Source: Arboricoccus pini (GTDB lineage: Bacteria > Pseudomonadota > Alphaproteobacteria > Geminicoccales > Geminicoccaceae). From it: a stretch of 64,000 nt of DNA. This document shows positions 8,173 through 29,496 of this stretch, in pieces. The notes below the pieces were generated by a model that did not search any database, was not told the DNA's origin, and saw only the letters and a list, made by a program, of their open reading frames with translations. A program made the translations under genes and the position numbers. Location of the stretch: positions 62,001 through 126,000 of the forward strand of contig NZ_FYEH01000007.1 in assembly GCF_900187945.1 (NCBI RefSeq), written 5' to 3'. Each line of letters opens with the position of its first letter. Within the stretch, counting starts at the first letter, position 1.

Positions 8173-8178
8173 CGATGC

Positions 8179-9762: not shown

Positions 9763-9785
9763 GAGAGGTCCAGGAAAGGGAAAGT

Positions 9786-9807
9786 CGTCGGCCTATGAAC
9801 GCCGACG
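9786..9807. other. Perfect 7-bp hairpin between map and prfC
   Basis: CGTCGGC (9786-9792) and GCCGACG (9801-9807) flank an 8-base loop. On the minus strand it follows the map stop and precedes the prfC start by 24 bases. A pyrimidine-rich ACTTTCCCTTTCC follows it, but there is no true U-run. It could be a weak terminator/attenuator or a leader structure limiting RF3 synthesis. Confidence 0.4.
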
Positions 9808-9846
9808 GCTGGACTGGTGCCACGCTAAAAACAGGCGCCTAGGTGC

Positions 9847-10710
9847 CTAAGGCACGCCGTAGGGCGGTTTGTCGAAGCCCGCGGGGGAGAGGGTGAAGAT
9901 CTCGTAGCCCTCTTCGGTCACCCCCAGCATATGCTCGAACTGCGCGGAAGGCTCGCGGTCCTTGGTGACGGTCGTCCAGCCATCGTCGAGGATGCGGACC
10001 TGCCATGTACCGGCATTGATCATGGGCTCGATCGTGAAGATCATGCCGGGCTCGAGGACGAGTCCCTGACCAGGCTTGCCATAATGGCGCACTTCGGGCG
10101 GTTCGTGGAACTCGCGTCCGACGCCGTGACCGACAAAGTCACGAACGACCGAAAAGCTGCGACCCTTCCGGTTCTCTTCCGCCACGGCCTGAATGGCCGC
10201 GCCGATATCGCCCATCGTGGCACCCGGGCGCACGGCGTTGATCCCGGCCCACATGCTCTCGAACGTCCGTTCGGTCAAAAGGGCTCGCTTAACCGGTATC
10301 TTCGAGCCCACATGAAACATGCGGCTCGTGTCGCCATACCAGCCGTCGAGGATGACGGTAACGTCGATATTGAGCGTGTCACCTTCGCGCAGCCGGCGCT
10401 TTTCGCTCGGAATCCCGTGATTGACGACCTCGTTGATCGAAATGCAGGACGACGCAGGATAGCCTTTATAGCCGAGCGTGGCCGGCACGCCGCCATGATC
10501 GCGCATGAAGGTATCGATCAGGCGATCGAGTTCGGCCGTCGAGATCCCCTCGCGGACATGAGCAGTGATGAAGTCGAGCGTCCGCGCGGCAAGGTTGCCG
10601 GCGCGGTGTGCGGCGGCGAAATCGGCGGGCTCGTAAAGGTGCACGGGACGATTAGTGCCGCCCGTATCGATGACCGTGCGTTTCATACCTGCCGACAATT
10701 TCCTGGACAT
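9847..10710 (-). CDS. map: Methionine aminopeptidase, type I
   Basis: Removes the initiator methionine from nascent proteins; binuclear-metal pita-bread fold, 287 residues as drawn. All five ligands are visible in this numbering: D116 (NIDVTVILDGW), D127 (YGDTSRMF), H195 (VGHGVGREFHE), E228 (FTIEPMIN) and E259 (QFEHMLGV). The conserved substrate His is H98 (EVVNHGIPS). A second start at 10686 (MKRTV, residue 9) is equally possible, giving 279 residues. The roughly 30-residue lead before the catalytic fold is slightly longer than in E. coli Map but is common in alphaproteobacteria. It lies 57 bases after the dehydrogenase-fusion gene on the same strand. Confidence 0.96.
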   Translation of the reverse strand: MSRKLSAGMKRTVIDTGGTNRPVHLYEPADFAAAHRAGNLAARTLDFITAHVREGISTAELDRLIDTFMRDHGGVPATLGYKGYPASSCISINEVVNHGIPSEKRRLREGDTLNIDVTVILDGWYGDTSRMFHVGSKIPVKRALLTERTFESMWAGINAVRPGATMGDIGAAIQAVAEENRKGRSFSVVRDFVGHGVGREFHEPPEVRHYGKPGQGLVLEPGMIFTIEPMINAGTWQVRILDDGWTTVTKDREPSAQFEHMLGVTEEGYEIFTLSPAGFDKPPYGVP

Positions 10711-10767
10711 GGCTTGGGGCGCTCAATTCCGGGCGCCTAGCATTGCGTGCGCCCGCTTGTCAAATAT

Positions 10768-12078
10768 CTAGAGTACAGCAATTGGTTCGACCACCTCGGG
10801 ATTGAGAAGGTAGCCCTGCCCGGGATCAACACCATTCAGCACGTCAAGAAGCGAGTGCACGGCGCGACGGGCCATGGCGTCGAGCGACGTCTCCGAGAGG
10901 CCGGCGATGTGCGGCGTCAAGATCAGCCTCGGCGCCTCGAGCAACGCCGAATTCGCTGGAAGGGGCTCGCGCTGGAAAACATCGAGAACGGCACCACCGA
11001 GATGGCCGGCCCGCAGGCTGCTGACGAGAGCCGTCTCGTCGAGCAACTCGCCGCGGGCTACGTTCACGAGAAAGGATCCGGGCTTCATGGCTGCGAGCTC
11101 CCGTCCGCCGATGAGCTGCCGCGTCGACGGCAGCAGCGGCGCCTGGATCGAGAGGAAATCGACCTGTGGCAGCAGGCGCTCCAGCGGCATCAGCGTGCAG
11201 CCCAGTCGGGCGACCGTATCGGGATCCATGTTCGGGTCGGCCACCAGCATCTCTGCGCTGAACCCCTGGCAGCGCTTGGCAATGCTACGTCCGATGCGGC
11301 CAAAGCCGACGAGGCCGATGATGGCGCCGGAAAGGCCACTATGAAAAAGCGGCGCCCACTCGCCTCGACGAACGGCGGCGTCGTAGTCGAGCGTCCGTGT
11401 GGCGAGCAGGCCCATGGCTGCCAGTACATAGTCGGCAACGGTGTCGTTGTTGGTGCCAAGGGTCACCGCGACGGCGACACCCGCATTGGAGGCCGCCATC
11501 AGGTCGACATGCTCATGGCCGACGCCCAGCCTCGAGATACAGCGAAGCTCGGGACATTGGGCGAAAACCTGGCGGGTGTAGGACTCCATGCCGGCAATAA
11601 CGGCACAACAGCCGCCCAGCATGGTGACCAGCTCGGTCTCACCGGGCGTGTAATCGAGCGGGGCGAAGATCAGCTCATAACCGGCCTGTTCCAGGCCTTT
11701 GAGAAGATGGTGGCGTTCGCGCAAAGCAGGAGCGGTCACGAGGATTCGTCGAGAGACAGCGGCTGTCGGGCGGGGATGACGAAACCGATTATGCATTGAG
11801 ATCCGCGAGCTCTCGATCAGAGGCTCGAGGCCGGCCAGCGTCGTTGGCATTTGAGGCATCGTCCGGTGTGCCTCGAACGCAGCCTGATCCGCGTAGACCT
11901 CGTAGAGGAACACCCGATGCGCGTCATTTCCGTCCTCGATGACGTCGAATTGCAGGCAACCGGTTTCGTTGGCGAATGAAGCTTCGGCATGACGGGTGAT
12001 CAGCTCGAGAAATTCCTTCGTCCTGCCTTCCTTGACCGAAAATTCAACCAGGACGACAAATCCCTCTGATCCCTTCAT
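10768..12078 (-). CDS. Fusion of an ABM-type monooxygenase domain to a D-2-hydroxyacid dehydrogenase
   Basis: One uninterrupted frame, 436 residues from the ATG at 12078 (GAGGG 8 bases upstream; a GTG at 12087 and an ATG at 12084 also lie in frame but too close to it). Residues 2-92 look like an antibiotic-biosynthesis-monooxygenase (ABM) ferredoxin-like domain: VVLVEFSVKEGRTKEFLELI, then ETGCLQFDVIEDGNDAHRVFLYEVYADQAAFEAH. Residues 110-436 are a complete D-isomer 2-hydroxyacid dehydrogenase. The NAD motif is GLVGFGRIGRSIA (about 255) and the catalytic residues are R342 (NVARGELLDE), E371 (FQREPLP) and H390 (TPHIAGLS), as in phosphoglycerate or hydroxypyruvate reductases. The substrate is unknown. 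Gene order (small protein, amidase, exporter, this gene) suggests a small catabolic operon. Confidence 0.82.
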   Translation of the reverse strand: MKGSEGFVVLVEFSVKEGRTKEFLELITRHAEASFANETGCLQFDVIEDGNDAHRVFLYEVYADQAAFEAHRTMPQMPTTLAGLEPLIESSRISMHNRFRHPRPTAAVSRRILVTAPALRERHHLLKGLEQAGYELIFAPLDYTPGETELVTMLGGCCAVIAGMESYTRQVFAQCPELRCISRLGVGHEHVDLMAASNAGVAVAVTLGTNNDTVADYVLAAMGLLATRTLDYDAAVRRGEWAPLFHSGLSGAIIGLVGFGRIGRSIAKRCQGFSAEMLVADPNMDPDTVARLGCTLMPLERLLPQVDFLSIQAPLLPSTRQLIGGRELAAMKPGSFLVNVARGELLDETALVSSLRAGHLGGAVLDVFQREPLPANSALLEAPRLILTPHIAGLSETSLDAMARRAVHSLLDVLNGVDPGQGYLLNPEVVEPIAVL

Positions 12079-12114
12079 GCTCATCACCCTCTTATGTTGT
12101 TTGGTGCAACCTCC

Positions 12115-13014
12115 CTAGGCTGGAATGGCTCGCCTGCGATGCTCGCGCCAAGCGGCATACAGGCCGGCCCCGACCACCAGTGAAGCGCCCACTCCCGTCC
12201 ATACATCGGGGAGGTCACCGAAAAATAGGTAGCCGATCCCGACTGCCCAGAGGAGCAGGGTATAGGTGAAGGGCTGGACCACGACCGCCGGTGCCAATGC
12301 CAGGGCCTGGACGAGAAAGTAGTGCCCGGCAGCACCGAGTACACCCAGGAGAACCAGCAACGGGATATGTCGAAGCGCGATGGGCGTGAGAAAGAACGGC
12401 CCCATCAGCGATAGCATCAGCACCATGAGGATACTCTGCAAAAGATAGCTGGTATCGGCGGCATCGACGCGCGCCACCAGCCGCGTGAGCACCATGTAGG
12501 TCGCATAGAGCAGCATGGCGACGACGATGAAGGCCATATCCCTGCCAAGCGGCATCAGTCCGGGCCGCAGGATGATCAGGACGCCAACAAAGCCGATGGC
12601 GACGGCGGTCCAGCGTCGCCATCCGACTTGCTCGCCCAGGAAGAAGAAGGAAAGGGCTGTCACGACCAATGGCGTCACGGCGAAGATCGAGTGGGCGTTG
12701 GCAAGCGGCAGGGTCTTGAACGCGGTGATGACGAGCCCGGTCTCGACGATAAGAAACAGACAGCGGAGTAACTGTAACTTGAATGCACGCGTCTGCCGCA
12801 TGGCGACCAGCGGGTGACGTGGGGCCAGCGCCAGGATCACCAGCGGCAGCGCCATCAGATAGCGCAGCCAAAGAACGAGCTGGGGTGGATAGGACTGGAC
12901 GAGCGCCTTGCTCAGGCCGTCCATGGTCCCGAACATGCCCATGGCGACAAGCGTCAGGAGGATGCCCGTCAGTTCCGGTGCACGTGCCACTGCCAGCGCG
13001 GGTCGTGCCACCAT
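12115..13014 (-). CDS. EamA/DMT-family transporter
   Basis: Inner-membrane exporter or permease of the drug/metabolite transporter superfamily, 299 residues with two EamA repeats and about ten membrane helices. The first repeat opens GILLTLVAMGMFGTMDGLSKALV. The second contains LLGVLGAAGHYFLVQALALAPA, and the family's end-of-protein basic tail (WREHRRRA) is present. I start it at the ATG at 13014, one base after the amidase stop. A longer frame to 13089 would overlap the amidase by 74 bases and add a non-membrane stretch typical of a shadow. The tight junction implies translational coupling. Its substrate cannot be read; export of an amidase or dehydrogenase product is a guess. Confidence 0.87.
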   Translation of the reverse strand: MVARPALAVARAPELTGILLTLVAMGMFGTMDGLSKALVQSYPPQLVLWLRYLMALPLVILALAPRHPLVAMRQTRAFKLQLLRCLFLIVETGLVITAFKTLPLANAHSIFAVTPLVVTALSFFFLGEQVGWRRWTAVAIGFVGVLIILRPGLMPLGRDMAFIVVAMLLYATYMVLTRLVARVDAADTSYLLQSILMVLMLSLMGPFFLTPIALRHIPLLVLLGVLGAAGHYFLVQALALAPAVVVQPFTYTLLLWAVGIGYLFFGDLPDVWTGVGASLVVGAGLYAAWREHRRRAIPA

Positions 13015-13015
13015 C

Positions 13016-14464
13016 TCATGCTCTCGCCGGCATGCCGCCGCGCTCGAGCCAAGCCGGACGACGGACGGCGAAGCCTGTGGCCGATTCAAAGGCTTCTGCC
13101 ACGGCTAGAAGCTGGGCTTCCGCGAAAGGTCGGCCTACCAGTTGCAAGCCCATGGGCATGCCGTCGCGATCGAAGCCCATGGGCGTGCTGAGCGCCGGTA
13201 GTCCCAGATAGTTGAAAGCGCCGATCAGGGCCGCCAGCTCGTTCGATGCCTGGACATAGCGTGCATCACCGCCCGTGCTCGTCTCGGCAATGGTGGGCGG
13301 CCGTTGAGGGATGGTTGGCAGGGCGATGATGTCGGCGTCGGCGAAGACGGCGTCGCAATAGGCCCGCAACTGGCCTGCCCTGGCAGACAGCGCGCGCAGA
13401 TAAGCGCTAGCGGGAGCGGCGAAGCCGGGGAGCATGCGCGAAGTCGTCGTGACATTGTAGTCATGTGGCCGGGTGCGCACGAGAGTCTCGTGCAGGGAGG
13501 CTACCTCCACCACGGAGATCAGCCGCCGAAGGGCGTTTAAAGGCTCCATTGGGGGCAGCGGCCGCTTCGTCGCTTCCAGGCCGATCTCGGCAAGCACCCG
13601 GCCAGCTTCGGCAAAACCGTTGCGGACATCGTCGTCGAGCGGACCCTCAAAGCCTTCTTCGGTAGCCAGCGTCACGCGCAGGCCCTTGATAGGCTGGCCG
13701 ATCCGCTGGCGGTAACGCTCAACGGGGCGCCGGCTCGTGGTGCCATCCTTGGGATCGAAGCCGGCGATCAATTCGAGCATCAAGGCGCAGTCGGCGGCCG
13801 ACCGGGCGATGGGGCCCACATGGTCGAGGGAGAATGATAACGGCATCGCATTCGCTCGGCTCACCCTTCCGTAGGTGGGCTTGATACCGACCACACCGCA
13901 GAGCGACGAAGGAGTACGGATCGAGCCGCCCGTGTCGGATCCCAATGTGGCGAACGTGAGCCTGGCAGCCACCGCCGTGGCACCGCCGCTGGTCGAACCC
14001 CCGGTGACCCGCTCCGGATTCCAGGCATTCTTCGGGTGGCCGGTATGGTCGTTGTGACCCGTAACGCCCAGCGCGAACTCCACCATGTTGAGGCGGCCCA
14101 CATCAATGGAGCCCGCCGCACTTAGGCGTTCAATCACAGTCGCTGTGACCTGCGGCACATAGTTCTTGAAGATCAGGCTGCCCATCTCGGAGGGCCGGCC
14201 AGCGTGATGAAACATGTCCTTGTGCGCCAGGGGCACGCCATGGAGGGCGCCTCGCAGGATTCCCCGCCGACGTTCCGCATCGCAACGCGCGGCCTCTTCG
14301 CGAGCGGCCTCTGCATGCACGCGGGCAGTGGCATTGAGGGCGCGGCCTTCCTTGTCCAGCGCCGATAACATGGCTTCAGTCACCTCGAGCGAGGTGACCT
14401 CGCCCGTCCGGATTTTCTGGGCGATCTCTATGAGACCCAGGCTCAGCAGCTCAGCATTCCTCAT
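13016..14464 (-). CDS. Amidase-signature family hydrolase
   Basis: Ser-cisSer-Lys amidohydrolase, 482 residues. The triad is K82 (PLAHKDMFHHAG), the cis-serine region S157/S159 (GGSTSGGA) and nucleophile S181 (SDTGGSIRTP). The conserved GVVGIKPTYGRVSR and FSLDHVGPIARSAADCALML follow. GatA, AtzE, AtzF and indoleacetamide hydrolases share these blocks, so the substrate is open. GatA is unlikely because no GatB is adjacent. The small gene upstream overlaps this start by 4 bases (ATGA), and the transporter downstream begins one base after its stop, so the three are surely co-translated. A partnership with the small protein, as in AtzE-AtzG or GatA-GatC, is likely. Confidence 0.93.
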   Translation of the reverse strand: MRNAELLSLGLIEIAQKIRTGEVTSLEVTEAMLSALDKEGRALNATARVHAEAAREEAARCDAERRRGILRGALHGVPLAHKDMFHHAGRPSEMGSLIFKNYVPQVTATVIERLSAAGSIDVGRLNMVEFALGVTGHNDHTGHPKNAWNPERVTGGSTSGGATAVAARLTFATLGSDTGGSIRTPSSLCGVVGIKPTYGRVSRANAMPLSFSLDHVGPIARSAADCALMLELIAGFDPKDGTTSRRPVERYRQRIGQPIKGLRVTLATEEGFEGPLDDDVRNGFAEAGRVLAEIGLEATKRPLPPMEPLNALRRLISVVEVASLHETLVRTRPHDYNVTTTSRMLPGFAAPASAYLRALSARAGQLRAYCDAVFADADIIALPTIPQRPPTIAETSTGGDARYVQASNELAALIGAFNYLGLPALSTPMGFDRDGMPMGLQLVGRPFAEAQLLAVAEAFESATGFAVRRPAWLERGGMPARA

Positions 14465-19077: not shown

Positions 19078-19509
19078 ATGAGCGGGGAGCACCTGATCGA
19101 ACGGTTGGTAGGTGCTTGGCAGCTCTCTCGCGTTATTTCCAATGGCGCCAGCTATCGCGGTCGCGCCGTCTGGAGGCCCGAGGCGGGGCATCTGCACTAT
19201 CGCGAGGACGGGACGATGCGGCTGGCCGATGGCCGCATTTTCTCGTGCTATCGCAGCTACCTCTTCCAGCTCGATGAATTGAGGCTAACGGTCTATTTCG
19301 ACGAGCAGCCGCCCAGGTTGTTCCATCGAATGGAATTGAAGGCCGGAGACGACGGCACGTTCAGAGCCGAAGGTCATCATGATTGCGGGCGGGATCGCTA
19401 TCTCACGACCTACGAGATCGGCAATTTCATCCGCATCGTTCATGACGTCAAAGGACCGTTCAAGGACTATCGCCTGATCGGCACCTATCAGCGTCAGACG
19501 GTAAGATGA
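19078..19509 (+). CDS. DUF6314 family protein
   Basis: 143 residues from the ATG at 19078; the frame extends to 19015, but the conserved part begins with the later ATG. The pattern LVGAWQLSRVI, GRAVWRPEAGHLHYREDGTMRL, SCYRSYLFQLDE, LRLTVYFDEQPPRLFHRMEL and HHDCGRDRYLTTYEI is that of DUF6314, a small beta-barrel-like family of unknown function with conserved aromatic, His and Cys residues. The gene is convergent with urtE and their 3' ends overlap by 16 bases. No function is assigned. Confidence 0.72.
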   Translation: MSGEHLIERLVGAWQLSRVISNGASYRGRAVWRPEAGHLHYREDGTMRLADGRIFSCYRSYLFQLDELRLTVYFDEQPPRLFHRMELKAGDDGTFRAEGHHDCGRDRYLTTYEIGNFIRIVHDVKGPFKDYRLIGTYQRQTVR

Positions 19510-20189
19510 GCTTTGATGGCGGCCTCGTCGATCTTGTCCGGCGCCCCGTCAAGCACGATCTGGCCGCGATCCATGACCAGGATGCGGTCGGCCAGTTCTC
19601 GCGCGAAATCGAGATATTGCTCGACTAGAAGCACGGCCATGCCGCGCTGATCACGCAGATATTTAAGGACGTTGCCGATATCCTTGATGATCGAGGGCTG
19701 GATGCCTTCGGTCGGCTCGTCCAGGACGATCAGCTTGGGATTGGTGACCATGGCCCGGCCGATGGCCAGTTGCTGTTGCTGGCCGCCCGACAGATCGCCG
19801 CCCCGTCGATTGAGCATTTTGCCCAGGACCGGAAAGAGCGCGAAGATCTCATCATCGATCCGCCGACGATTTCGTGGCAGGACGCCAAAGCCGGTCTCAA
19901 GGTTCTCCTTGACCGTCAGGAGCGGGAAGATTTCCCGACCCTGCGGCACAAAGGCAATGCCGCGCCGGGCGCGCTCGGCTGGCGCCATCGTCGTGATATC
20001 GTGACCGTCAAACGTGATGCGTCCACCGCTTGGTCGGTGCTGGCCGGTAATCGCCCTTAGCGTCGAGGTCTTGCCCACGCCGTTGCGGCCGAGGACGCAG
20101 GTGATCGCTCCCTCAGCGGCTGCCAGCGATACGCCCCAGAGGGCCTGGCTCTTACCATAGTGAAGATTGATGTGCTCGACGCGAAGCAT
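19494..20189 (-). CDS. urtE: Urea ABC transporter ATPase UrtE
   Basis: 231-residue ATPase of the LivF type, the second nucleotide-binding subunit of the urea importer. It has Walker A GRNGVGKT, an unusually complete signature LSGGQQQQLAIGRAM, Walker B LIVLDEPTEGIQP and the stretch VLLVEQYLDFA that distinguishes UrtE from LivF. It is the last gene of urtABCDE, 6 bases after urtD. Its 3' end overlaps the convergent DUF6314 gene. Confidence 0.95.
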   Translation of the reverse strand: MLRVEHINLHYGKSQALWGVSLAAAEGAITCVLGRNGVGKTSTLRAITGQHRPSGGRITFDGHDITTMAPAERARRGIAFVPQGREIFPLLTVKENLETGFGVLPRNRRRIDDEIFALFPVLGKMLNRRGGDLSGGQQQQLAIGRAMVTNPKLIVLDEPTEGIQPSIIKDIGNVLKYLRDQRGMAVLLVEQYLDFARELADRILVMDRGQIVLDGAPDKIDEAAIKAHLTV

Positions 20190-20195
20190 GATCGT

Positions 20196-20963
20196 CTACC
20201 TCCCCAGATAGACTTCGATGACGCGCTCGTTGCTCTGGACCTGATCGAGCGACCCTTCCGCCAGCACCGAGCCTTCATGGAGCACGGTGACCTTGACGTT
20301 GAGGGCGCGCACGAAGGTCATGTCGTGCTCGACGACCATGACTGAGCGCGTCTTGTTGATCTCCCGCAGGAGATCGGCCGTCGCCTCGGTCTCGAGATCC
20401 GTCATGCCGGCGACAGGCTCGTCGACGAGCAGCAACTCGGGCTCTTGAACCAGCAGCATGCCGATCTCCAGCCATTGCTTTTGACCATGGCTGAGATCGC
20501 CTGCCGGACGATCGCGAGCGGCTGTCAGCCGCACCGTTTCCAGGACGGCGTCGATCCGCTCGATCTGGCGGGGCTTGATCGAACGGAAGAGGGTGCTGAA
20601 AACGTCGCGTGGTCCGGCGATCGCCAGCACGAGATTGTCGAAGACCGTATGGTTCTCGAAGACGGTCGGCTTTTGAAATTTTCGGCCGATGCCGGCGCGT
20701 GCGATGGTCGCTTCGTCATGCCGAGTAAGATCGAGATTGCCCTTGAAGCGCGCCGTTCCCTTCTGGGGGCGGGTCTTGCCCGTGATCACGTCCATCATCG
20801 TTGTCTTGCCGGCGCCGTTGGGGCCGATGATGGCCCGCATCTCGCCGGGCTCGAGCAGCAGGGAAAGGGCATTCAGTGCCTTGAAACCGTCGAACGTCAC
20901 CGAAATGCCGTCCAGATAAAGGATAGGGTCACGGGCGGGGCGATCGACGGACACGGCGCTCAT
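20196..20963 (-). CDS. urtD: Urea ABC transporter ATPase UrtD
   Basis: 255-residue ATPase of the LivG type. Walker A is GPNGAGKT, the signature is DLSHGQKQWLEIGM (the SHGQKQWLEI variant is typical of UrtD) and Walker B is LLLVDEPVAGMTD. The ATG at 20963 overlaps the urtC stop by 4 bases. The open frame continues another 150 codons upstream inside urtC, but that part is an Arg-rich shadow. Expected to pair with UrtE beneath the UrtB/UrtC membrane subunits. Confidence 0.95.
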   Translation of the reverse strand: MSAVSVDRPARDPILYLDGISVTFDGFKALNALSLLLEPGEMRAIIGPNGAGKTTMMDVITGKTRPQKGTARFKGNLDLTRHDEATIARAGIGRKFQKPTVFENHTVFDNLVLAIAGPRDVFSTLFRSIKPRQIERIDAVLETVRLTAARDRPAGDLSHGQKQWLEIGMLLVQEPELLLVDEPVAGMTDLETEATADLLREINKTRSVMVVEHDMTFVRALNVKVTVLHEGSVLAEGSLDQVQSNERVIEVYLGR

Positions 20964-22069
20964 GAGCGGGCCTCCCCGGCTTCGGCGGCCGCGGACTTGC
21001 GGTTGAAGGCGTCGATGCCGCCCAGGCGAAGTAGGCCTGCTATGCCTTTGGGCAGGAAGAGGGTGACGAGCACGAACATGAGGCCGAGCGCGAAGAGCCA
21101 CCATTCCGGGAAGTTGTTCGTCAGCCAGGATTTCACGAAGTTGACGCCCACGGCACCGACAATGGCGCCCCAGAGCGTGCCGCGACCGCCCAGCGCTACC
21201 CAGATCACCGCCTCGATCGAGTTGCCCGTCCCGAACTCGGAAGGATTGATGATACCTACCTGAGGCACGTAGAGGGCCCCGGCGATGCCTGCCAGCATGG
21301 CCGAGATCGTCCAGACGAAGAGCTTGTAGTGCTCGACGCGATAGCCGCAAAAGCGCGCGCGCGATTCGGCATCGCGGATGGCGACGATGACGAGACCTGC
21401 CCTTGAGCGCGTAACAAAGACGCAAAGGAGATAGGCCAAGGCAAGCGTGATCGCCGTTACGGAAAAGAGTGCCGAGCGGGTCGCATCCGCCCCCGTATCG
21501 AACCCGAGGATCTCCTTAAAGTCGGTCAGGCCGTTATTGCCGCCCATGCCCATGTCATTGCGGAAAAACGCCAGCAGGAGGGCGAAGGTCATGGCCTGGC
21601 TGATGATCGAGAGATAGACGCCCGTCACGCGGCTCCGGAAGGCCAGCCAGCCAAAGACGAGGGCGAGTGCCCCGGGGACCAGGACGATCATGGGAAAGGC
21701 GAACCAGGCATGATCCATGCCCCACCAGTACCAGGGGAGCTCCTTCCAGTTCAAAAACACCATGAAGTCCGGCAGGATCGGGTCGCCATAGACGCCGCGC
21801 GACCCGATTTGCCGCATGAGGTACATGCCCATCGCATAGCCGCCGAGCGAGAAGAAGGCGGCGTGGCCGAGCGAGAGGATGCCGCAATAGCCCCAGACGA
21901 GGTCGAGGGCCAATGCCAACATGGCGTAACAGAGATATTTGCCGAAGAGACTGACGGCGTAGGTCGGCAGGGTGCCGGTCGATAGATGCAGGATCGGCAC
22001 AAGGATGGCGATAGCGATGAGGACGGCCGGCACCACGACCGATGCGAAGGGCATGCGGCTGCTGATCAT
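20960..22069 (-). CDS. urtC: Urea ABC transporter permease UrtC
   Basis: 369-residue membrane protein of the LivM family with about ten helices. Family blocks are YAMLALALDLVWGYCGILSLGHAAFFSLGGYAMGMYLMRQIG, VTGVYLSIISQAMTFALLLAFFRNDMGMGGNNGLTDF and WVALGGRGTLWGAIVGAVGVN (each only sampled here). The DMGMGGNNGLTDFK stretch is characteristic of UrtC rather than LivM. It overlaps urtB and urtD by 4 bases on either side, a fully coupled operon. Confidence 0.95.
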   Translation of the reverse strand: MISSRMPFASVVVPAVLIAIAILVPILHLSTGTLPTYAVSLFGKYLCYAMLALALDLVWGYCGILSLGHAAFFSLGGYAMGMYLMRQIGSRGVYGDPILPDFMVFLNWKELPWYWWGMDHAWFAFPMIVLVPGALALVFGWLAFRSRVTGVYLSIISQAMTFALLLAFFRNDMGMGGNNGLTDFKEILGFDTGADATRSALFSVTAITLALAYLLCVFVTRSRAGLVIVAIRDAESRARFCGYRVEHYKLFVWTISAMLAGIAGALYVPQVGIINPSEFGTGNSIEAVIWVALGGRGTLWGAIVGAVGVNFVKSWLTNNFPEWWLFALGLMFVLVTLFLPKGIAGLLRLGGIDAFNRKSAAAEAGEARS

Positions 22070-23661
22070 GCCTCGATGGCCCGGCCCTTGAGCGCGAAGA
22101 GGCCGCGGGGGCGTTTTTGAATGAAGAGGATGACGAGAACGAGAAGGATGATCTTGCCGAGCACAGCGCCTGTGAACGGTTCGAGCAGCTTGTTGGCGAT
22201 GCCGATCGCCATGGCGCCGGTCAGCGTACCCCAGAGATTGCCAACCCCGCCGAAGACGACGACGAGAAAGCTGTCGATGATGTAGCCCTGCCCGAGATTG
22301 GGGCTCACATTGTCGATCTGGGAGAGTGCCACGCCGGCGATGCCGGCAATGCCCGAGCCGAGCCCGAACGTCAGCGCATCGACGAGCCCGGTACGGATGC
22401 CCATGGAGGCGGCCATGCGTCGATTCTGGGTCACGGCCCGCATCTCGAGGCCGAAGCGCGAATAGCGGATGAAGGCCAGGAGACCCAGGAAGACGGCCAG
22501 GCAGAAGATGATGATGACGAGCCGGCCGCTCGTCAGGGTCAGGCCGTCGAGGATGTCGAAGGAGCCGCTCATCCAGCTGGGCGAGGTGACCTCGCGATTG
22601 GTCGGACCGAAGATCGAGCGGACTGCCTGCTGCAGGATGAGCGAGATGCCGAATGTGGCAAGCAAGGTTTCAAGCGGTCGCCCGTAGAGGAACCGGATTA
22701 CCGTGCGCTCCAGGATGACGCCGGCAAGCCCGCCCACGACGAAAGCGGCCGGCACGGCGGCAATAAGCGACCAATTGGCTGCATCGGGAAGATAGGTCAC
22801 GAACAGCGTCTGGACGACATAGGTCGTGTAGGCGCCAAGCATGACCATCTCGCCATGCGCCATGTTGATCACCCCCATGACGCCGAAGGTGATGGCAAGG
22901 CCGATGGCGGCCAGGAGCAGGACCGAACCCAAGCTTATTCCGTAGATCGCATCTTGAACGCGAGCCAGCATCGACTGACGCATTTCGATCGAGGAGACGC
23001 TGGCCGCTGCCGCCTCGCGTATCGACGCGGAGGTGTCGTTCGCAAGGTTGCGCAGCATGGCCAGCGCGTCCGGATCACCGCGCCTGCCGATCGTCTCGAC
23101 CGCCTGGAGACGCTGCGCTTCGTCTCCCTGGCCGTTCGCGAGGAAAATGGCGGCGCGCGCGGTCTCCATCACGGCTTTGACGTCGGGATCTCGTTCCTTG
23201 GCGAGGGCTGCTTCGAGCGCAGGCAGGGCCTCGCCATCGCGTGCCTTGAAGACTGCATCGGCGGCTTGTCGCCTGATCGCAGCGTTGGGGCTGCTCAGAT
23301 TGAGCGTCCCCAACGCTGCCTCGGCTGCCCGGCGAATGCGGTTGTTAACGCGCACCGCCTTGGCGCCGGCCGCTGCATCCCCCGCTGGCTGCAGCGTGGC
23401 GGCATCGAGCAGGCTGTCGTCGGCCTGCCGGATGAAAAAGCTGGGAGGATCGCCGGCAACAACCATCAGCCTGTTGTCCTGAAGGGCCGCAAGCACCGCC
23501 CCGGCACGCTGATCGCCACTGCCCGCCAAAATAACCACGCCCCGCTCCACGTCGTCGAACTTCCCGCCCAGCAGGTGGAGACCGTCATCGAAGCCGTCGG
23601 CCCGGGTCTCTGCTGAGAGTCCGAAGCAGAGAAGGAAGGCTAGGAGGAGGATGCGCAGCAT
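22066..23661 (-). CDS. urtB: Urea ABC transporter permease UrtB
   Basis: 531-residue LivH-type permease with the long periplasmic N-terminal domain seen in UrtB. A signal peptide (residues 1-21, LLLAFLLCFGLSAETRA) precedes about 200 residues of alpha-helical repeats resembling HEAT repeats (RRQAADAVFKARDGEALPAL, RRGDPDALAMLRNLANDTSA). Membrane helices then start at about 240 (LGSVLLLAAIGLAITFGVMG, INMAHGEMVMLGAYTTYVVQ). GSGIAGIAGVALSQIDNVSPNLGQ is the conserved permease block. It starts 24 bases after urtA. Confidence 0.95.
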   Translation of the reverse strand: MLRILLLAFLLCFGLSAETRADGFDDGLHLLGGKFDDVERGVVILAGSGDQRAGAVLAALQDNRLMVVAGDPPSFFIRQADDSLLDAATLQPAGDAAAGAKAVRVNNRIRRAAEAALGTLNLSSPNAAIRRQAADAVFKARDGEALPALEAALAKERDPDVKAVMETARAAIFLANGQGDEAQRLQAVETIGRRGDPDALAMLRNLANDTSASIREAAAASVSSIEMRQSMLARVQDAIYGISLGSVLLLAAIGLAITFGVMGVINMAHGEMVMLGAYTTYVVQTLFVTYLPDAANWSLIAAVPAAFVVGGLAGVILERTVIRFLYGRPLETLLATFGISLILQQAVRSIFGPTNREVTSPSWMSGSFDILDGLTLTSGRLVIIIFCLAVFLGLLAFIRYSRFGLEMRAVTQNRRMAASMGIRTGLVDALTFGLGSGIAGIAGVALSQIDNVSPNLGQGYIIDSFLVVVFGGVGNLWGTLTGAMAIGIANKLLEPFTGAVLGKIILLVLVILFIQKRPRGLFALKGRAIEA

Positions 23662-23685: not shown

Positions 23686-25011
23686 TTAAACGCCGCCGCA
23701 TTTGCCTGACTTGACGTTGAAGTTGCCGCAATTCATGGGCTTACGCCAATCGGCGATGAGGTCCTTGGAGCCTTCCAGATAGTCGGACCACTCGTCGCCG
23801 ACGACGAGGCCGGGGGTCTCCCAGACCGTGTTGATCTGGCCGTTACCCTGAATCTCGCCAATCAGGACGGGCTTGGTGATGTGATGATTGGGCATCATCG
23901 TCGCATAGCCGCCCGTCAGGTTCGGCACCGAGACGCCGATCATCGCATCAATGACGGCATCGTGGTCGATCGTGCCCGCCTTTTCGACAGCCTTAACCCA
24001 CATGTTGAAGCCGATATAATGGGCCTCCATGGGGTCATTGGTGACGCGCTTGTCGTTCTTGATGAACTTGTGCCACGCCTTGATGAAGGCCGCGTTCTCG
24101 GGCGTATCGACGCTCATGAAGTAATTCCAGGCCGCCAGATGGCCGACCAAAGGCTTCGTGTCGAGACCCGCCAATTCTTCCTCGCCGACCGAAAAGGCGA
24201 CGACCGGAATGTCGGTCGCCTTGACCCCCTGGTTGGCAAGCTCCTTGTAGAACGGTACGTTGGCATCGCCGTTGATCGTCGAGACTACGGCCGTCTTCTT
24301 GCCGGCGGAGCCGAATTTCTTGATCTCGGAGACGATCGTCTGCCAGTCGGACTGACCGAACGGCGTATAGTTGATCATGATGTCGTCAGCGCCGACACCC
24401 TTCAGCTTCAAATAAGCCTCGAGGATCTTGTTGGTCGTGCGCGGATAGACATAGTCCGTCCCCGCCAGCACCCAGCGCTCGACGCCTTCCTCGTTCATCA
24501 GATAATCAACCGCCGGCACCGCCTGTTGGTTCGGAGCCGCGCCCGTATAGAAGACGTTGCGTGAGCTTTCCTCGCCCTCGTACTGCACGGGATAGAAAAG
24601 AATGCCGTCGTCCTGCTCGAAGACCGGGAGCACCGACTTGCGGCTGACAGAGGTCCAGCAGCCGAAGACTGCAGCTACTTTTTGGGCTTCCAGGAGATCC
24701 TTGGCCTTCTCGGCGAAGAGCGGCCAGTTGGAGGCCGGATCGACGACGACAGCCTCAAGCTTTTTGCCGAGCAGGCCGCCTTTGGCGTTCTGCTGCTCGA
24801 TGAGCATCAGCATGACGTCCTTTAGCGTCGTCTCCGAAATCGCCATAGTGCCGGACAGCGAATGGAGGATGCCGACTTTGATCGTCGCATCGGCGGCCAA
24901 CGCCTGGCCTGCGCCCAGGCTGAGGGTTGGTAGGAGCGCTGCCGCGGCGGCGCCCTTTGCTGCGATGCCGGCAAAGGCACGGCGAGACAGGGTTCGAGGC
25001 GCTGACGTCAT
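23686..25011 (-). CDS. urtA: Urea ABC transporter substrate-binding protein UrtA
   Basis: Periplasmic urea receptor, 441 residues from the ATG at 25011 (an in-frame GTG at 25017 is closer to the GGGAG). It has a twin-arginine signal (LSRRAFAGIAAKG) and then a hydrophobic stretch ending at ALAAD, about residue 40. The mature start IKVGILHSLSGTMAISET and the later WTSVSRKSVLPVFE, FYPVQYEGEESSRNVFYTGAAPNQQ and AAWNYFMSVDTPEN are the UrtA fingerprint. First gene of urtABCDE. No urease genes lie in this window, though they often neighbour urt. Its promoter lies in the 200 bases shared with the divergent sensor gene. Confidence 0.95.
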   Translation of the reverse strand: MTSAPRTLSRRAFAGIAAKGAAAAALLPTLSLGAGQALAADATIKVGILHSLSGTMAISETTLKDVMLMLIEQQNAKGGLLGKKLEAVVVDPASNWPLFAEKAKDLLEAQKVAAVFGCWTSVSRKSVLPVFEQDDGILFYPVQYEGEESSRNVFYTGAAPNQQAVPAVDYLMNEEGVERWVLAGTDYVYPRTTNKILEAYLKLKGVGADDIMINYTPFGQSDWQTIVSEIKKFGSAGKKTAVVSTINGDANVPFYKELANQGVKATDIPVVAFSVGEEELAGLDTKPLVGHLAAWNYFMSVDTPENAAFIKAWHKFIKNDKRVTNDPMEAHYIGFNMWVKAVEKAGTIDHDAVIDAMIGVSVPNLTGGYATMMPNHHITKPVLIGEIQGNGQINTVWETPGLVVGDEWSDYLEGSKDLIADWRKPMNCGNFNVKSGKCGGV

Positions 25012-25092
25012 GATCACATTTCTCCCTTGGGACGCACCAAGACGGCGGTGCTCCGGCAGGCCCTGGATGCGGGTCCTGGGCAGTTCAGGGAA

Positions 25093-25108
25093 TACGTCGA
25101 ATGACGTA
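25093..25108. promoter_or_regulatory. 16-bp palindrome in the urtA / sensor-kinase divergent promoter
   Basis: TACGTC (25093-25098) and GACGTA (25103-25108) form a perfect inverted repeat around GAAT. It lies 82 bases upstream of urtA and 103 bases upstream of the TTG of the sensor kinase, a position suited to an operator for the LuxR-type regulator encoded in the same locus. Regulators of that class often bind short TAC-type inverted repeats. Assignment to that protein is inference. Confidence 0.45.
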
Positions 25109-25210: not shown

Positions 25211-28200
25211 TTGGACGAGCAGGCGGCGGTGGGGCGGCAACGGATCGTTCGTGAACGGCGCGACTATAATCGCTGGGTCGCGAACCAGACGCTTGAGGAC
25301 TATGCGCTACGTTTTACGGCCAAAGCTGCTAGGCGATGGTCCGCCTGGCGGGTGGCCCACGCCGCCCTGGGGGTCGTCTCCTTCCTGGCACTCGAGGCGA
25401 TCGGCGGCGCCATCACGCTCACTTTCGGGGTCACCAACGCCGTGGCGGCCATTCTCGTCGTGGCTGCCCTCATCTTCGTCGCGTCCGTGCCGATCTGCTA
25501 CTATGCCGCCCGTGACGGAGTCGATGTCGACCTCCTGACCCGGGGCGCCGGCTTTGGTTATATAGGCTCGACCATCACGTCGCTGATCTATGCCTCTTTC
25601 ACCTTTATCTTCTTTAGCATCGAGGCCGTCATCGTCGCTGCCATGCTCGAGAGCTTTCTCGGCATTCCGCTCTGGCTTGGCTATATTCTCTGCGCGCTCG
25701 TCGTCATTCCCATCGTGGTCTACGGCTTCACGTTCATCAATCGGTTGCAGATCGCTACGCAGCCGCTCTGGTTCGTACTCAATCTCGTCCCGTTGGTCCT
25801 GATCCTTGGCGCGCATCCCGACTGGTTGCCGGATTGGCGCAGCTTCACCGGTTCGGCTGGCCCCAGAGGTGCGTCTTTTGATCTCCTCCTCTTCGGGGGC
25901 GCCGCATCGATCCTTTTCGCTCTGATCACCCAGACGGCCGAGCAGGTCGATGTGATTCGGTTTTTGCCCGATCGGCGCGGTCAGAAGCCATTTCGGTGGT
26001 GGACCGCCCTCCTGGCCGGCGGACCGGGCTGGATCGTCATCGACGTCTTGAAGCTCCTAGCCGGCTCCTTCCTCGCCTATGCGGCCTTGCGCTACGGCTT
26101 GCCGCCCGAGCAAGCAGTTCAGCCGCACGAGATGTATCTCGTGGCCTTCCGCACCTGGTTCAGCCCGGGCACCGCGGTCATGCTCGTCTTTCTTCTCGTC
26201 ACCGTTTCGCAACTCAAGATCAATGTCATCAACGCCTATGCGGGTTCGCTCGCCTGGTCGAATTTCTTTTCCCGCCTGACGCATGCGCATCCGGGCCGCG
26301 TCGTCTGGCTGGTGTTCAACATCATGATCGCGCTCCTCCTGATGGAATTGGGCATCCACAAGACGATCGCGAACACGCTGGTCATCTACTCCGATGTGTC
26401 GGCCGCCTGGATGGGGGCCTTGATCGCGGATCTCGTCGTCAACAAACCGTTGGGCTGGAGTCCGCGCCATATCGAGTTCAAGCGCGCTCATCTCTATGAC
26501 ATCAACCCGGTCGGCGTAGGCGCCATGATGCTGGCCGGCATTCTCTCGCTTGCCGCCTATGCGGGCTGGCTCGGAGTCGAAGCTGAGGCGTTTTCGACCT
26601 TTATCGCCTTTGCAGTTGCCTTCGCGACCGCGCCCATGCTGGCCAGGCTGACAGGGGGGCGCTTCTATCTGGCCCGCAAGCCGCGGGCGGCCTGGTCGCG
26701 ACTTGAGAGTTTGAAATGCTCGATCTGCGAGCACGACTTCGAGCCCGAGGACATGGCTTATTGTCCGGTCTATGCGGGTCCGATCTGTTCGCTCTGTTGC
26801 ACCTTGGACGCGCGGTGCCAGGATGGGTGCAAGCCGCATGCCCGCCTGGGCAACCAGATACTCGCCCCGTTACGGGCGCTCATGCCCGGCAACTGGCAAG
26901 GCATCGCTGGAGGGCTGCTTGCCCGTTTTCTCGGGGTCTTTCTCTTGTTTGCCGGGACTATCGGCCTCGTCCTCTTCGTCATTCACGCCCAGACAGTCAC
27001 ATCCGCCGTCGTTTCGGCCCGGAGCTTCGCCGCGGCCTTTGGTACCGTTTTCGTCATTTTGCTTATCGTTAGTGGCATCGCTGCCTGGCTGTTGGTGCTA
27101 GCGCAGGAAAGCCGGCGTGCCTCGCAGGCGGAGACGAAGCGGCAGACCGCTCTTCTCATGGCCGAGATCCGCGCTCACCGGCAAACCGATGCCGCCTTGC
27201 AGCAGGCTAAGGAGGCGGCCGAGGCTGCCAGTCTTGCCAAAAGCCGATATGTCGTCGGCATCAGCCACGAGTTGCGCAGCCCCTTGAATGCGATTTTGGG
27301 CTATGCCCAGCTTCTCGAGCACGACGCCGCTATTCCCGAGGGTCGACGCGAGGGAATCGCCATCATCAGGCGCAGTGGCGAGCATCTGACGGCGTTGATC
27401 GAAGGCCTTTTGGACATTTCCAAGATCGAAGCCGGCCGTATCGCTCTTTATCGCGACGAACTCCGGCTGCCACTCTTTCTCGACCAACTGGTGCAGATGC
27501 TGCGGGTGCAAGCCGATGCCAAGGGCATTGCCTTCCACTATGACCGCCCGAAGCTCCTGCCGGAGCTGGTTTATGCCGATGAGCAGCGTCTTCGGCAGGT
27601 GCTGATCAATCTGCTCTCCAATGCCATCAAGTTCACAACCGTGGGGCAGGTGACGTTCAGATTGCGCTGGCGTAACGAGATTGCGGAGTTCGAAGTCGAG
27701 GACACCGGGCCCGGTATCGCCGAGGCCGATAAAGAGCGCATTTTCGAGCCTTTTCAGCGTCTGCCGACCGCTAGCGGTGCGCCGGGAACAGGGCTTGGCC
27801 TCACGATCTCCAAGCTATTGACGGCGATCATGGGAGGCGAACTCACGCTGGTCAGCGAGCTTGGCAAAGGCAGCCGATTTCGCGTCCGGTTGATGCTGGC
27901 CAGGGTCGAGCACGGTGGCAGACCCGCCTCCCTGGCACGGCAGCGAGCTGCGGAAGGCAATCGCCGGGTCATCGGCCATACGGGCGAGAGACGCTCCATC
28001 ATGGTCGTCGACGACGACATGGTTCACCGCCGGCTGATCGCCGACATGTTGACCCCTTTAGGGCTGCTCGTGCTTGAGGCCTCGGATGGAGCATCGGGCC
28101 TAGCCCTGGCCAAGCAGTCGTCGCCCGATCTTTTTCTCGTCGATATCCGCATGCCCGGCCCTCTGAACGGCTGGGAGTTGGCCAGGCAGTTGCGTGCCGA

Positions 28201-28633
28201 GGGATTTTCCAACACGCCCATCCTTATCGTCTCGGCGACGCTGCGTGAGCTGCAGGAGCCACCCCACGAGGAGACTTTCCACGACGATGTGGTGTCCAAG
28301 CCAATCGATCTGCAGCAACTCCTGGACAAGATCGGTCATTATCTTCGTATTCAATGGACAAGTCTCGATGTCACGCCCGAGGCGGTCGTGGCGGATGTGC
28401 CATTCTTGTCGGGTTCGCAATTGGCCGAGTTACGGGAACTTGCCGCGATCGGCTATGTGCGCGGGATCCGCAACCGGCTAGACGCGCTGGAACAGGAATT
28501 CACGCTGGCACGGCCCTTCATCAGTCAGCTCAAGGCGTTGCTCGCCGATTATCGTCTGGAGGCATTCACGGAGGCGCTCGATAAGGCGGAAGCCGAGCTT
28601 GCAGCCGGCATTGCCGGGGCGGCGTCCTCTTGA
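25211..28633 (+). CDS. NCS1-type permease fused to Cys-rich module, histidine kinase and receiver
   Basis: 1140-residue hybrid sensor in one frame, from a TTG at 25211 (GGAG at 25201-25204). Residues 1-40 are cytosolic. About 45-490 form a 12-helix NCS1 nucleobase/allantoin-type permease (YNRWVANQTLEDYALRFT, ITLTFGVTNAVAAILV, ITQTAEQVDVIRFLPDRRG). Residues 503-540 hold eight cysteines (C503, C506, C518, C526, C529, C530, C536, C540), like a metal site. Two more membrane helices follow at about 560-640, then the kinase: H box SHELRSPLNAI with His near 686, N box NLLSNAIKF, and G boxes EDTGPGIA and GTGLGLTISK. A receiver follows (DDDMVHRR, phospho-acceptor D978 in LVDIRMPG) and an unassigned helical tail of about 90 residues. 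It is divergent from urtABCDE, so sensing of urea or a related nitrogen compound is a reasonable inference. Whether the permease half still transports is unknown. Confidence 0.9.
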   Translation: MDEQAAVGRQRIVRERRDYNRWVANQTLEDYALRFTAKAARRWSAWRVAHAALGVVSFLALEAIGGAITLTFGVTNAVAAILVVAALIFVASVPICYYAARDGVDVDLLTRGAGFGYIGSTITSLIYASFTFIFFSIEAVIVAAMLESFLGIPLWLGYILCALVVIPIVVYGFTFINRLQIATQPLWFVLNLVPLVLILGAHPDWLPDWRSFTGSAGPRGASFDLLLFGGAASILFALITQTAEQVDVIRFLPDRRGQKPFRWWTALLAGGPGWIVIDVLKLLAGSFLAYAALRYGLPPEQAVQPHEMYLVAFRTWFSPGTAVMLVFLLVTVSQLKINVINAYAGSLAWSNFFSRLTHAHPGRVVWLVFNIMIALLLMELGIHKTIANTLVIYSDVSAAWMGALIADLVVNKPLGWSPRHIEFKRAHLYDINPVGVGAMMLAGILSLAAYAGWLGVEAEAFSTFIAFAVAFATAPMLARLTGGRFYLARKPRAAWSRLESLKCSICEHDFEPEDMAYCPVYAGPICSLCCTLDARCQDGCKPHARLGNQILAPLRALMPGNWQGIAGGLLARFLGVFLLFAGTIGLVLFVIHAQTVTSAVVSARSFAAAFGTVFVILLIVSGIAAWLLVLAQESRRASQAETKRQTALLMAEIRAHRQTDAALQQAKEAAEAASLAKSRYVVGISHELRSPLNAILGYAQLLEHDAAIPEGRREGIAIIRRSGEHLTALIEGLLDISKIEAGRIALYRDELRLPLFLDQLVQMLRVQADAKGIAFHYDRPKLLPELVYADEQRLRQVLINLLSNAIKFTTVGQVTFRLRWRNEIAEFEVEDTGPGIAEADKERIFEPFQRLPTASGAPGTGLGLTISKLLTAIMGGELTLVSELGKGSRFRVRLMLARVEHGGRPASLARQRAAEGNRRVIGHTGERRSIMVVDDDMVHRRLIADMLTPLGLLVLEASDGASGLALAKQSSPDLFLVDIRMPGPLNGWELARQLRAEGFSNTPILIVSATLRELQEPPHEETFHDDVVSKPIDLQQLLDKIGHYLRIQWTSLDVTPEAVVADVPFLSGSQLAELRELAAIGYVRGIRNRLDALEQEFTLARPFISQLKALLADYRLEAFTEALDKAEAELAAGIAGAASS

Positions 28634-29496
28634 CAAGGCGCGACGTCGTTCTCGTCGTCGACGATACGCCAGGTACGCTCGGCATGTTGAACGATGCCCT
28701 CGAGAGCGCCGGGTTCATGGTGCTGCTGGCCCAATCGGCCGCTGCCGCGTTCAGCGTTATCGAGCGTGTTGCGCCTGATATCATTCTCATGGATGCGATC
28801 ATGCCGGGGATGGACGGCTTTGAGGCCTGTCGTCGCCTGCGACGGTTGCCTGAGCTTACCAATGTGCCCATTGTCTTCATGACTGGCCTGACCGAGAGTG
28901 CCAGCGTGGTACGTGGCCTGGAGGCGGGCGGCGTGGATTATGTGACGAAACCACTTCGACCCGACGAGGTCATAGCCCGTCTTGGCGTGCACTTGGCGAA
29001 TGCCCGCCTGGCTCGAAGCTCGCAAGCGGCACTCGATGTCGCGGGGCGCTATCTCCTGGCGGTCGATCCCGAGGGGCGGATTCTTTGGGCGACACCCCAG
29101 GCGAGGAGCCTGTTGGCCGCGGCCGGTCTCGATGCATGTGTGCCAAGCCTTGCAGGCCAACTCGATCGAAATCCAGGCGGTAGCCTGGTCGGTCCATCGC
29201 TCGAATTGCAGCATGTTGGCCAAGTGAGCGATGAAGAACGCTTGTTCCGAGTGATGCCCGCCGCGGATCCGGAAAGGGAGGCCACACTCCTCAAGGAGCG
29301 GCTGCAACTGACCAGCCGCGAGGCGGAAGTGCTGGTCTGGCTAGGACGCGGCAAGTCCAATCGGGATATCGCTGATATTCTGCTGCTTAGTCCACGAACG
29401 GTGAACAAACACCTCGAACAGATCTACCCCAAGCTCGGCGTCGAGAACCGCGCCGCCGCGACAGCGCTCACCGTCAAGATCATCTCCAGCACCTAG
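28630..29496 (+). CDS. Response regulator with receiver, PAS-like and LuxR-type DNA-binding domains
   Basis: 288-residue transcription regulator, from a TTG at 28630 that overlaps the kinase stop by 4 bases. The receiver (residues 5-125) has DD at 11-12, phospho-acceptor D55 (IILMDAIMPGMDG), switch T (FMTG) and K in TKPLRP. Residues about 135-205 look PAS-like (GRYLLAVDPEGRILWATPQARSLLAAAG). Residues 225-288 are the LuxR/FixJ helix-turn-helix (LTSREAEVLVWLGRGKSNRDIADIL, SPRTVNKHLEQIYPKLGVENRAAA). It is the obvious partner of the upstream hybrid kinase, and the palindrome in the urtA promoter is a candidate target. The kinase's own receiver would make this a phosphorelay or a two-output system. 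Confidence 0.93.
   Translation: MTRRDVVLVVDDTPGTLGMLNDALESAGFMVLLAQSAAAAFSVIERVAPDIILMDAIMPGMDGFEACRRLRRLPELTNVPIVFMTGLTESASVVRGLEAGGVDYVTKPLRPDEVIARLGVHLANARLARSSQAALDVAGRYLLAVDPEGRILWATPQARSLLAAAGLDACVPSLAGQLDRNPGGSLVGPSLELQHVGQVSDEERLFRVMPAADPEREATLLKERLQLTSREAEVLVWLGRGKSNRDIADILLLSPRTVNKHLEQIYPKLGVENRAAATALTVKIISST

Follow-up and report, generated by a model that had tools for sequence, protein, structure and literature searches.

The 64,000-nucleotide stretch of Arboricoccus pini DNA analysed here (contig NZ_FYEH01000007.1, positions 62,001 to 126,000; hereafter the window) carries a gene for a transporter-like sensor protein, which is followed by a gene for a response regulator and is divergent from an operon for a urea-type ATP-binding cassette transporter, urtABCDE. 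As listed in Table 1, the sensor is encoded in a single open frame and comprises an N-terminal permease domain, a cysteine-rich segment, two further membrane helices and a hybrid histidine kinase. Hydropathy analysis resolved 12 hydrophobic regions within residues 52-478 (neighbouring peaks being merged by hand), and Pfam detected the HisKA, HATPase_c and receiver domains that define a hybrid histidine kinase. The regulator starts within the stop codon of the sensor (TTGA) and carries Pfam matches to Response_reg (residues 7-118) and GerE/LuxR (residues 226-279), as expected of the NarL/LuxR type, and UrtA to UrtE all scored above their NCBIfam cut-offs (TIGR03407-03411). These observations were in agreement with an original prediction made from the letters of the window, which had read the 1140-residue frame as permease, Cys-rich segment, two helices, kinase and receiver, and the next gene as a REC-PAS-like-LuxR regulator overlapping its stop, the pair being divergent from urtABCDE.

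Table 1. Positions of the sensor gene, its domains and the neighbouring features within the window.
Feature	Position	Strand	Basis or remark
Sensor gene: NCS1-fold permease, Cys-rich segment, two membrane helices, hybrid histidine kinase	25211..28633	+	1140 residues
Proposed receptor: permease domain with NCS1 fold and 12 helices (residues 21-480)	25271..26650	+	predicted fold, profile, hydropathy
Eight-cysteine segment, residues 503-540	26717..26830	+	conservation
Two further membrane helices, residues 573-591 and 613-631, leading into signalling helix	26927..27103	+	hydropathy, model
HisKA 677-742, HATPase_c 790-896, receiver (Response_reg) 930-1041	27239..28333	+	Pfam
Response regulator: REC, PAS-like middle domain, LuxR-type helix-turn-helix	28630..29496	+	Pfam, model; overlaps sensor stop by 4 nt
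Palindrome TACGTCGAATGACGTA, proposed regulator binding site	25093..25108	.	conservation
urtA, urea transporter substrate-binding protein	23686..25017	-	TIGR03407, 567.5 bits (cut-off 492.75)
urtB	22066..23661	-	TIGR03409
urtC	20960..22069	-	TIGR03408
urtD	20196..20924	-	TIGR03411
urtE	19494..20189	-	TIGR03410

The fusion of permease and kinase is not an assembly artefact: an intact single frame of 1124-1243 residues was found in 25 of the 26 matching genomes of a class sample (385 genomes, A. pini included). The remaining genome (G353) has a broken sensor copy with a 281-residue frame, and the regulator still lies 3' of it (G353:C211:61501-79809, L061). Shorter sensors of 885-891 residues occur at two further loci (L216, G487:C3; L234, G584:C2), both with a formamidase within about 5 kb; at L216 Pfam finds no receiver in the sensor, a separate REC-kinase gene comes next, and an amidohydrolase adjoins. 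In the regulator, Asp55 and Lys107 were invariant over 46 aligned rows, and the predicted structure (predicted local distance difference test score, pLDDT, 92) displays a PAS-like strand/helix pattern at about residues 142-210. A fold search with the regulator matched the chains of receivers and of entire regulators, StyR and FixJ among them.

The original prediction had further taken the N-terminal part for an apparently complete NCS1 permease. The helices, the predicted fold and a profile alignment agree with this, but the family profile does not: PF02133 (Transp_cyt_pur) matched neither the permease domain nor anything elsewhere in the A. pini genome, and the NCBIfam CodB profile gave a weak match to the domain (E 1.7e-6; 27.1 bits, the cut-off being 326). 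The assignment was therefore based on structure prediction and profile-profile comparison. In an AlphaFold2 model of residues 21-706, built from 52 sequences (pLDDT 78.7), the closest fold was CodB (Z 35.6, 398 residues aligned, 3.1 Å), followed by Mhp1 (Z 30.3), with the other LeuT folds at Z 24.5 or less and the SSS/SLC5 chains among them at 23.8 or less. With hhalign, the family profile aligned to a canonical NCS1 profile over 412 columns (probability 97.9, E 4.4e-13); two rows with doubtful frames (L268, L254) were left out of the canonical profile, and their inclusion gave E 1.4e-11 with an unchanged residue mapping. As judged from the model and these alignments, the permease fold is that of NCS1, in a divergent branch: it resembles CodB and Mhp1 in its predicted fold, in its full-length profile alignment and in an invariant Asn at the position of CodB Asn280, and differs from them in lacking a PF02133 match and the aromatic sandwich, in carrying Lys for Thr278, in its C-terminal Cys segment and in its low identity (17%).

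The residues of the substrate pocket were compared by mapping 128 fused rows onto CodB through the profile alignment, not by superposition; residues are numbered here as in the protein (alignment position plus 20). In the part of the CodB study accessible to us, the pocket residues are described together with an aromatic sandwich said to be conserved across the NCS1 family (PMC9379551). In the fused sensors, the equivalent of CodB Trp108 is Phe (109/128) or Leu (19/128) and that of Phe204 is Leu (125/128), whereas the canonical NCS1 rows carry Trp at the former in 7/7 cases and Phe or Trp at the latter in 5/7, with Leu in the other two. At the Na2 site, Thr278 is replaced by Lys (128/128) and Thr279 by Ile (127/128), which suggests from the alignment that sodium is not used; these Thr positions vary too in some canonical rows. 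Thus the predicted NCS1 fold stood, and the aromatic pair and the Na2 threonines expected in its pocket did not. The Asn at CodB Asn280 is retained in 128/128 rows, and ten residues of the pocket region (Thr131, Gln241, Glu244, Gln245, Asp247, Gln334, Lys336, Asn338, Asn341 and Tyr343) are invariant in all 128, as well as in the three stand-alone permeases, without kinase, of a first alignment (A1). With the aromatic sandwich lost, a small polar, non-aromatic ligand would suit the pocket better than a nucleobase.

The segment following the permease is marked by eight cysteines, all of which were kept in 19/19 fused rows of A1 and in 52/52 rows of a second alignment (A2, made without L093, which has a stop inside the sensor frame). 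The core cysteines are retained in the stand-alone permeases of A1, two of which have four of the eight and the third five. Such a pattern is consistent with metal binding. Pfam gave no significant match in the segment between permease and kinase, for which no separate STAC profile was run, and the permease and Cys-rich parts returned nothing significant against Pfam and PDB sequences, the best hit being a zinc finger protein chain (E 0.66).

The distribution of the system was surveyed in several samples, in which the class or phylum of the genomes is inferred. The sensor was present in 1/31 genomes of an order sample (A. pini alone) and in the 26/385 of the class sample. With a stand-alone relative as query, matches were obtained in 52/398 genomes of a phylum sample (presumably Pseudomonadota) and in 17/369 genomes of a second class sample (the class of genome G580, taken as Gammaproteobacteria from gene order). 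Among plasmid records, 534 of 72,556 matched, some of them through stand-alone relatives, and 342 of these are Klebsiella by the first word of the record. A GTDB scan yielded at least 595 pattern stretches, of which at least 588 encode a relative; the best 80 were analysed. The samples partly overlap (G426 and G580 are in two, and other genomes may belong to the species of named loci), and species that are related do not count as independent.

Neighbouring urt, urease and formamidase genes were sought by tblastn with marker proteins up to about 9-10 kb on each side of the sensor; no sensor match was obtained in this survey at L061 and L062. Among the best 80 GTDB loci, 76 have UrtA (58 together with a formamidase, 8 with urease and 10 with urt alone), and three of the unlinked ones lie at contig ends (L083, L113, L125). 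In the class sample, 20 of the 24 sensors besides that of the window are linked to a marker. The phylum sample gave 58 places, five of which had already been counted, namely the window itself and four class-sample places, each of them linked; setting aside one stand-alone permease (L254) and two places cut by contig ends (L227, L253), the rest of the other 53 are linked in 50/50 cases, with urt and formamidase (31), formamidase (2), urease (7), urt and urease (6) or urt (4). The second class sample contributed 20 places, two of them stand-alone; of the 18 fused sensors, 10 are linked, 6 are not and 2 are cut (L337, L338). The genetic tie to urea uptake foreseen in the original prediction thus extends across many genomes, and its neighbourhood test came out in favour for most copies and against for a minority.

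The transporters next to the sensor fall into two kinds: one with a UrtA at least 63% identical to that of the window, often accompanied by urease (urea type), and one with a UrtA of 36-43% identity, usually next to a formamidase (amide type). Because the sensor is most often accompanied by a urt-type transporter plus a formamidase (fmdA, fmdB, amiF), and next most often by urt and/or urease, the ligand class was read as urea and short-chain amides. Of the two nitrogen sources that had been suggested, a link to urea was supported, with formamidase as the commonest enzyme, while no purine or allantoin partner was seen among the marker genes and annotated neighbours, purine genes not having been searched for as such. 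The three sensors nearest to that of the window (from Acidisoma, Roseomonas and an Acetobacteraceae strain) are of the urea type and the next two of the amide type. On a quick tree of 131 rows (131 of 167 sensors, L083 and those at least 90% identical to another being left out), the amide/urea neighbour label changes at least six times, and the ten pocket-region residues remain unchanged. This tree and the one described below are both quick searches with many weak branches (44/128 and 35/142 forks open). As for residues that might distinguish amide from urea, no clean switch was found among those of the sensor; the best candidate, the equivalent of CodB Trp108, is Phe in 78/78 amide-linked rows, and Leu occurs there in three of eight urea groups (two of which are sisters) and in Azospirillum and Acinetobacter rows.

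Some individual loci deserve description. Genome G1007 carries tandem sensor-regulator pairs about 9.5 kb apart (L331/L341, C1, around 1532000 and 1541500), and the first alone adjoins urt and formamidase genes; for the second, the nearest UrtA lies about 10 kb away, beside the first copy, and on the far side none of the markers lies apart from the first sensor with its regulator. On the Klebsiella quasipneumoniae plasmid pHNLW22-1 (L030), urtABCDE, a formamidase, the sensor and the regulator stand together. In the window itself, the urtD frame is open upstream to 21425, the TIGR03411 match covering residues 168-409 of the longer frame. The UrtB of the window (22066-23661, minus strand; 531 residues) has an N-terminal extension with HEAT repeats, and the UrtB annotated in amide-type operons of Chelatococcus and Klebsiella has 308 residues. 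An amidase signature family gene (PF01425) lies at 13016-14464 on the minus strand, about 5 kb beyond urtE. The main urease cluster of A. pini is on another contig (C12), and two divergent urease sets, with UreC 59% and 52% identical to the marker, occur together with a distant urt-like set at C26:28501-48500 (L339).

Between the sensor gene and urtA lies the palindrome given in Table 1. Its pattern, TACGYMNNNNKRCGTA (TACGYM-N4-KRCGTA), was derived by eye from nine intergenic regions, and the copy in the window is its sole exact match in the 4.07-Mb A. pini genome. The pattern was evaluated in those 133 of 168 loci in which UrtA or UreA starts divergently no more than 1500 bp from the sensor. 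It was exact in 54 of the 133 regions and present with at most one mismatch in 106, against 0 and 0.7 in dinucleotide shuffles. The regions not used for its derivation (n = 124) gave 49 and 98, respectively, and those of sensors less than 90% identical to one another (103 regions) gave 44 and 80. Permuted half-site palindromes reached a mean of 1.6/133; the best two of the 174 distinct permutations reached 55 (TAYGCM, a nearly identical motif) and 10. With at most one mismatch, the palindrome precedes 92/111 amide-type UrtA genes and 12/13 urea-type ones. Over all targets, the distance between its centre and the approximate gene start has a median of 118 bp. In a genus in which sensor and urt lie apart (three close relatives), a one-mismatch site is found just upstream of the sensor (L055, L056, L057), and the remote amide-type urtA of the same genus has one-mismatch sites about 150-200 bp upstream (L291-L293), the three genomes being devoid of exact sites. 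The Klebsiella plasmid locus L030 likewise has a one-mismatch palindrome.

Relatives of the permease domain also occur without a kinase, and ten such stand-alone loci were analysed; L254 (552 residues, 28% identity) was not counted among them. They comprise earlier loci and five (H107, H111, H114, H117, H118) picked by hand from the 18 plasmid matches nearest to the stand-alone query (H101-H118). A urease cluster accompanies three of the ten (L032, L318, L323) and a formamidase or aliphatic amidase five (L319, L320, L321, L322, L324). The Acinetobacter permease L033 has the sensor alone as partner (an unannotated record, searched by tblastn), two overlapping one-mismatch palindromes lying between them in Acinetobacter, and the Streptomyces permease L031 has no urease, amidase or sensor partner. 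In Methylovirgula (L321), fmdB, fmdA, sensor, regulator, stand-alone permease and amidase form one cluster in which no urt is annotated. At L324, an exact palindrome separates the sensor from a series of genes that comprises the stand-alone permease, fmdA, fmdB and an amidase of the nitrilase family, and no urt marker was found in the 20 kb; the stand-alone permease is here in place of urtABCDE. The second quick tree, built from 145 rows that include 10 stand-alone permeases, parts the fused from the stand-alone forms at one branch (support 99), which implies a single change in either direction.

The receptor module, moreover, recurs on other outputs. In genome G900 it is joined to PAS-GGDEF-EAL at one locus (L325, C3:73730-93653; 7119-10790, minus strand) and to PAS-PAS-HisKA-HATPase-REC at another (L329, C11:13882-33805; 9141-12959, plus strand), with no urt, urease or formamidase marker in either stretch. 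The module thus behaves as an exchangeable input. This recurrence helps the proposal, already made in the original prediction, that the transport fold acts as the receptor, as we infer here.

Among known systems, the parallel with CbrA drawn in the original prediction holds, and that with CrbS/CrbR and RpuS/RpuR is closer. According to the accessible parts of the respective papers (PMC5715377, PMC9100948), the latter systems likewise place a transporter fold on a hybrid kinase with a C-terminal receiver and employ a LuxR-type partner and a short repeat in the target promoters. They differ in that CrbS and RpuS have an SLC5 fold with 13 helices, a STAC domain and a PAS domain in the kinase, and the ACTU repeat at acetate/pyruvate genes, whereas the window sensor has an NCS1 fold with 12 + 2 helices, an eight-Cys segment, no Pfam PAS domain in the kinase and a PAS-like domain in the regulator, and the palindrome lies at urea/amide genes. 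The histidine system CbrA/CbrB shares the transceptor idea of a transporter domain as nutrient sensor (PMC13022988, as far as accessible), and CbrA combines SLC5 with STAC, whereas the window sensor joins an NCS1 fold and a Cys-rich segment to a hybrid kinase and works with a partner of LuxR type. The hybrid kinase and LuxR design is closer to CrbS/CrbR and RpuS/RpuR than to CbrA; with its NCS1 fold, the sensor is the counterpart of CrbS and CbrA, which are SLC5/STAC kinases. No paper on an NCS1-kinase fusion was found in the open-access literature searched.

On the side of the target genes, Methylophilus methylotrophus fmdCABDEF combines a binding-protein transporter for amides and urea with a formamidase and is induced by formamide and urea, no sensor of the present kind being mentioned in the accessible part of the report (PMC10781810). 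A urtABCDE operon beside LuxR-family two-component regulator genes is described for one genome in the accessible text of PMC13296017. The plasmid urea transport cluster of Klebsiella ST307/CG307, for which UrtABC and AmiF are listed, was suggested to aid urinary colonisation (PMC5506382, PMC13060141); the text available of these papers mentions no sensor kinase, with no matches for "kinase" or "sensor" in the former and none for "histidine kinase" or "two-component" in the latter. The L030 locus resembles this cluster in its transporter and formamidase, and sensor and regulator genes are seen in L030.

Taking these results together, we regard it as fairly probable that the gene pair constitutes a two-component system controlling the uptake and breakdown of urea and short-chain amides. 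The N-terminal NCS1-fold domain would bind urea, formamide or a related small amide by its carboxamide group. The transporter fold would thereupon change its conformation, and this change would reach the kinase by way of the Cys-rich segment and the two helices that follow it. As its domains suggest, the kinase would phosphorylate the REC-PAS-LuxR partner, possibly by relay via its own receiver. The regulator would then bind the conserved palindrome between the divergent operons and activate, rather than repress, the transporter operon and probably its own genes too. The putative target is urtABCDE of the urea type in the window and an amide-type urt operon with formamidase in most relatives analysed; elsewhere it is urease, or formamidase together with a stand-alone member of the permease family.

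Several observations weigh against this interpretation. Six of the 18 fused sensors of the second class sample lack any urt, urease or formamidase marker (L325, L326, L327, L329, L333 and the second copy of G1007); the stretch is short on one side at L326, L327 and L333, and three of the six unlinked sensors have other outputs. Also unlinked are the Azospirillum sensor L126, a true miss among the best 80 GTDB loci, and the class-sample genomes G081 and, from one genus, G063, G191 and G288, of which the last three have no exact palindrome and G081 has its single one on a different contig from its sensor and urtA. The palindrome is weak at urease promoters (0/9 exact, 2/9 with at most one mismatch), the urease clusters of A. 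pini have no exact copy, and the number of sites with at most one mismatch in this genome is background (26, versus 115 for the reversed pattern). Moreover, the receptor could double as a transporter, or the signal could enter via the Cys-rich segment. The claim is limited by those sensor copies, a minority, that lack a linked marker and by the poor showing of the palindrome at urease promoters. The sensor system itself is real, conserved and functionally coherent, and urea or a short amide is its likely ligand.

That the receptor doubles as a transporter, so that the permease part moves urea or amides and the kinase reads the flux, as opposed to the occupancy of a dead transporter, is a possibility that we entertain tentatively. 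CbrA is described as uniting transport and kinase activity (PMC7096432, PMC13022988, in the parts accessible), and fused and stand-alone forms here share the same pocket residues; on the other hand, the authors of the CrbS study argue against transport-dependent signalling (PMC5715377, accessible part). The role of transporter is, in addition, already filled next door by urtABCDE or by a stand-alone permease. It is unlikely that the Cys-rich segment or the PAS-like domain senses a state inside the cell or in the periplasm (metal, redox or nitrogen status), with the permease as an anchor or vestige. The eight invariant cysteines and the replaced Na2 threonines are compatible with such a role, and urease requires nickel; to our knowledge, however, formamidase and amidase are not nickel enzymes, the core cysteines are found in kinase-less permeases as well, and a mere anchor would not need ten pocket-region residues invariant in 128/128 rows. 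Detection of a purine, allantoin or other nucleobase, with the urea genes induced as the end of purine breakdown, would suit the NCS1 fold and the annotation of stand-alone relatives as allantoin or cytosine permeases but is very improbable, given that the family-conserved aromatic sandwich is Phe/Leu and Leu here, that the partners are formamidase, amidase and urease, and that we know of no purine breakdown in which formamide is an intermediate.

Returning to the two-component system for urea and short-chain amides, a wider proposal, to which we give about an even chance, is that the Cys-tailed NCS1-fold branch, hitherto unrecognised, comprises urea/short-amide permeases which were joined once to signalling, yielding a portable carboxamide receptor for kinases and cyclic di-GMP enzymes that controls a widespread regulon through the palindrome, Klebsiella plasmids included. 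In the open-access literature searched, transporter-derived sensor kinases combine an SLC5 fold with a STAC linker, and the present sensor would be a second case, from another branch of the LeuT fold. Since its stand-alone relatives still lie beside the same enzymes, one pocket can be studied side by side in its permease and its sensor form, which may reveal how a transporter becomes a receptor. The system is a candidate for the step at which the inducers of urea and formamide use are sensed, with a testable operator, and a candidate control element on Klebsiella plasmids.

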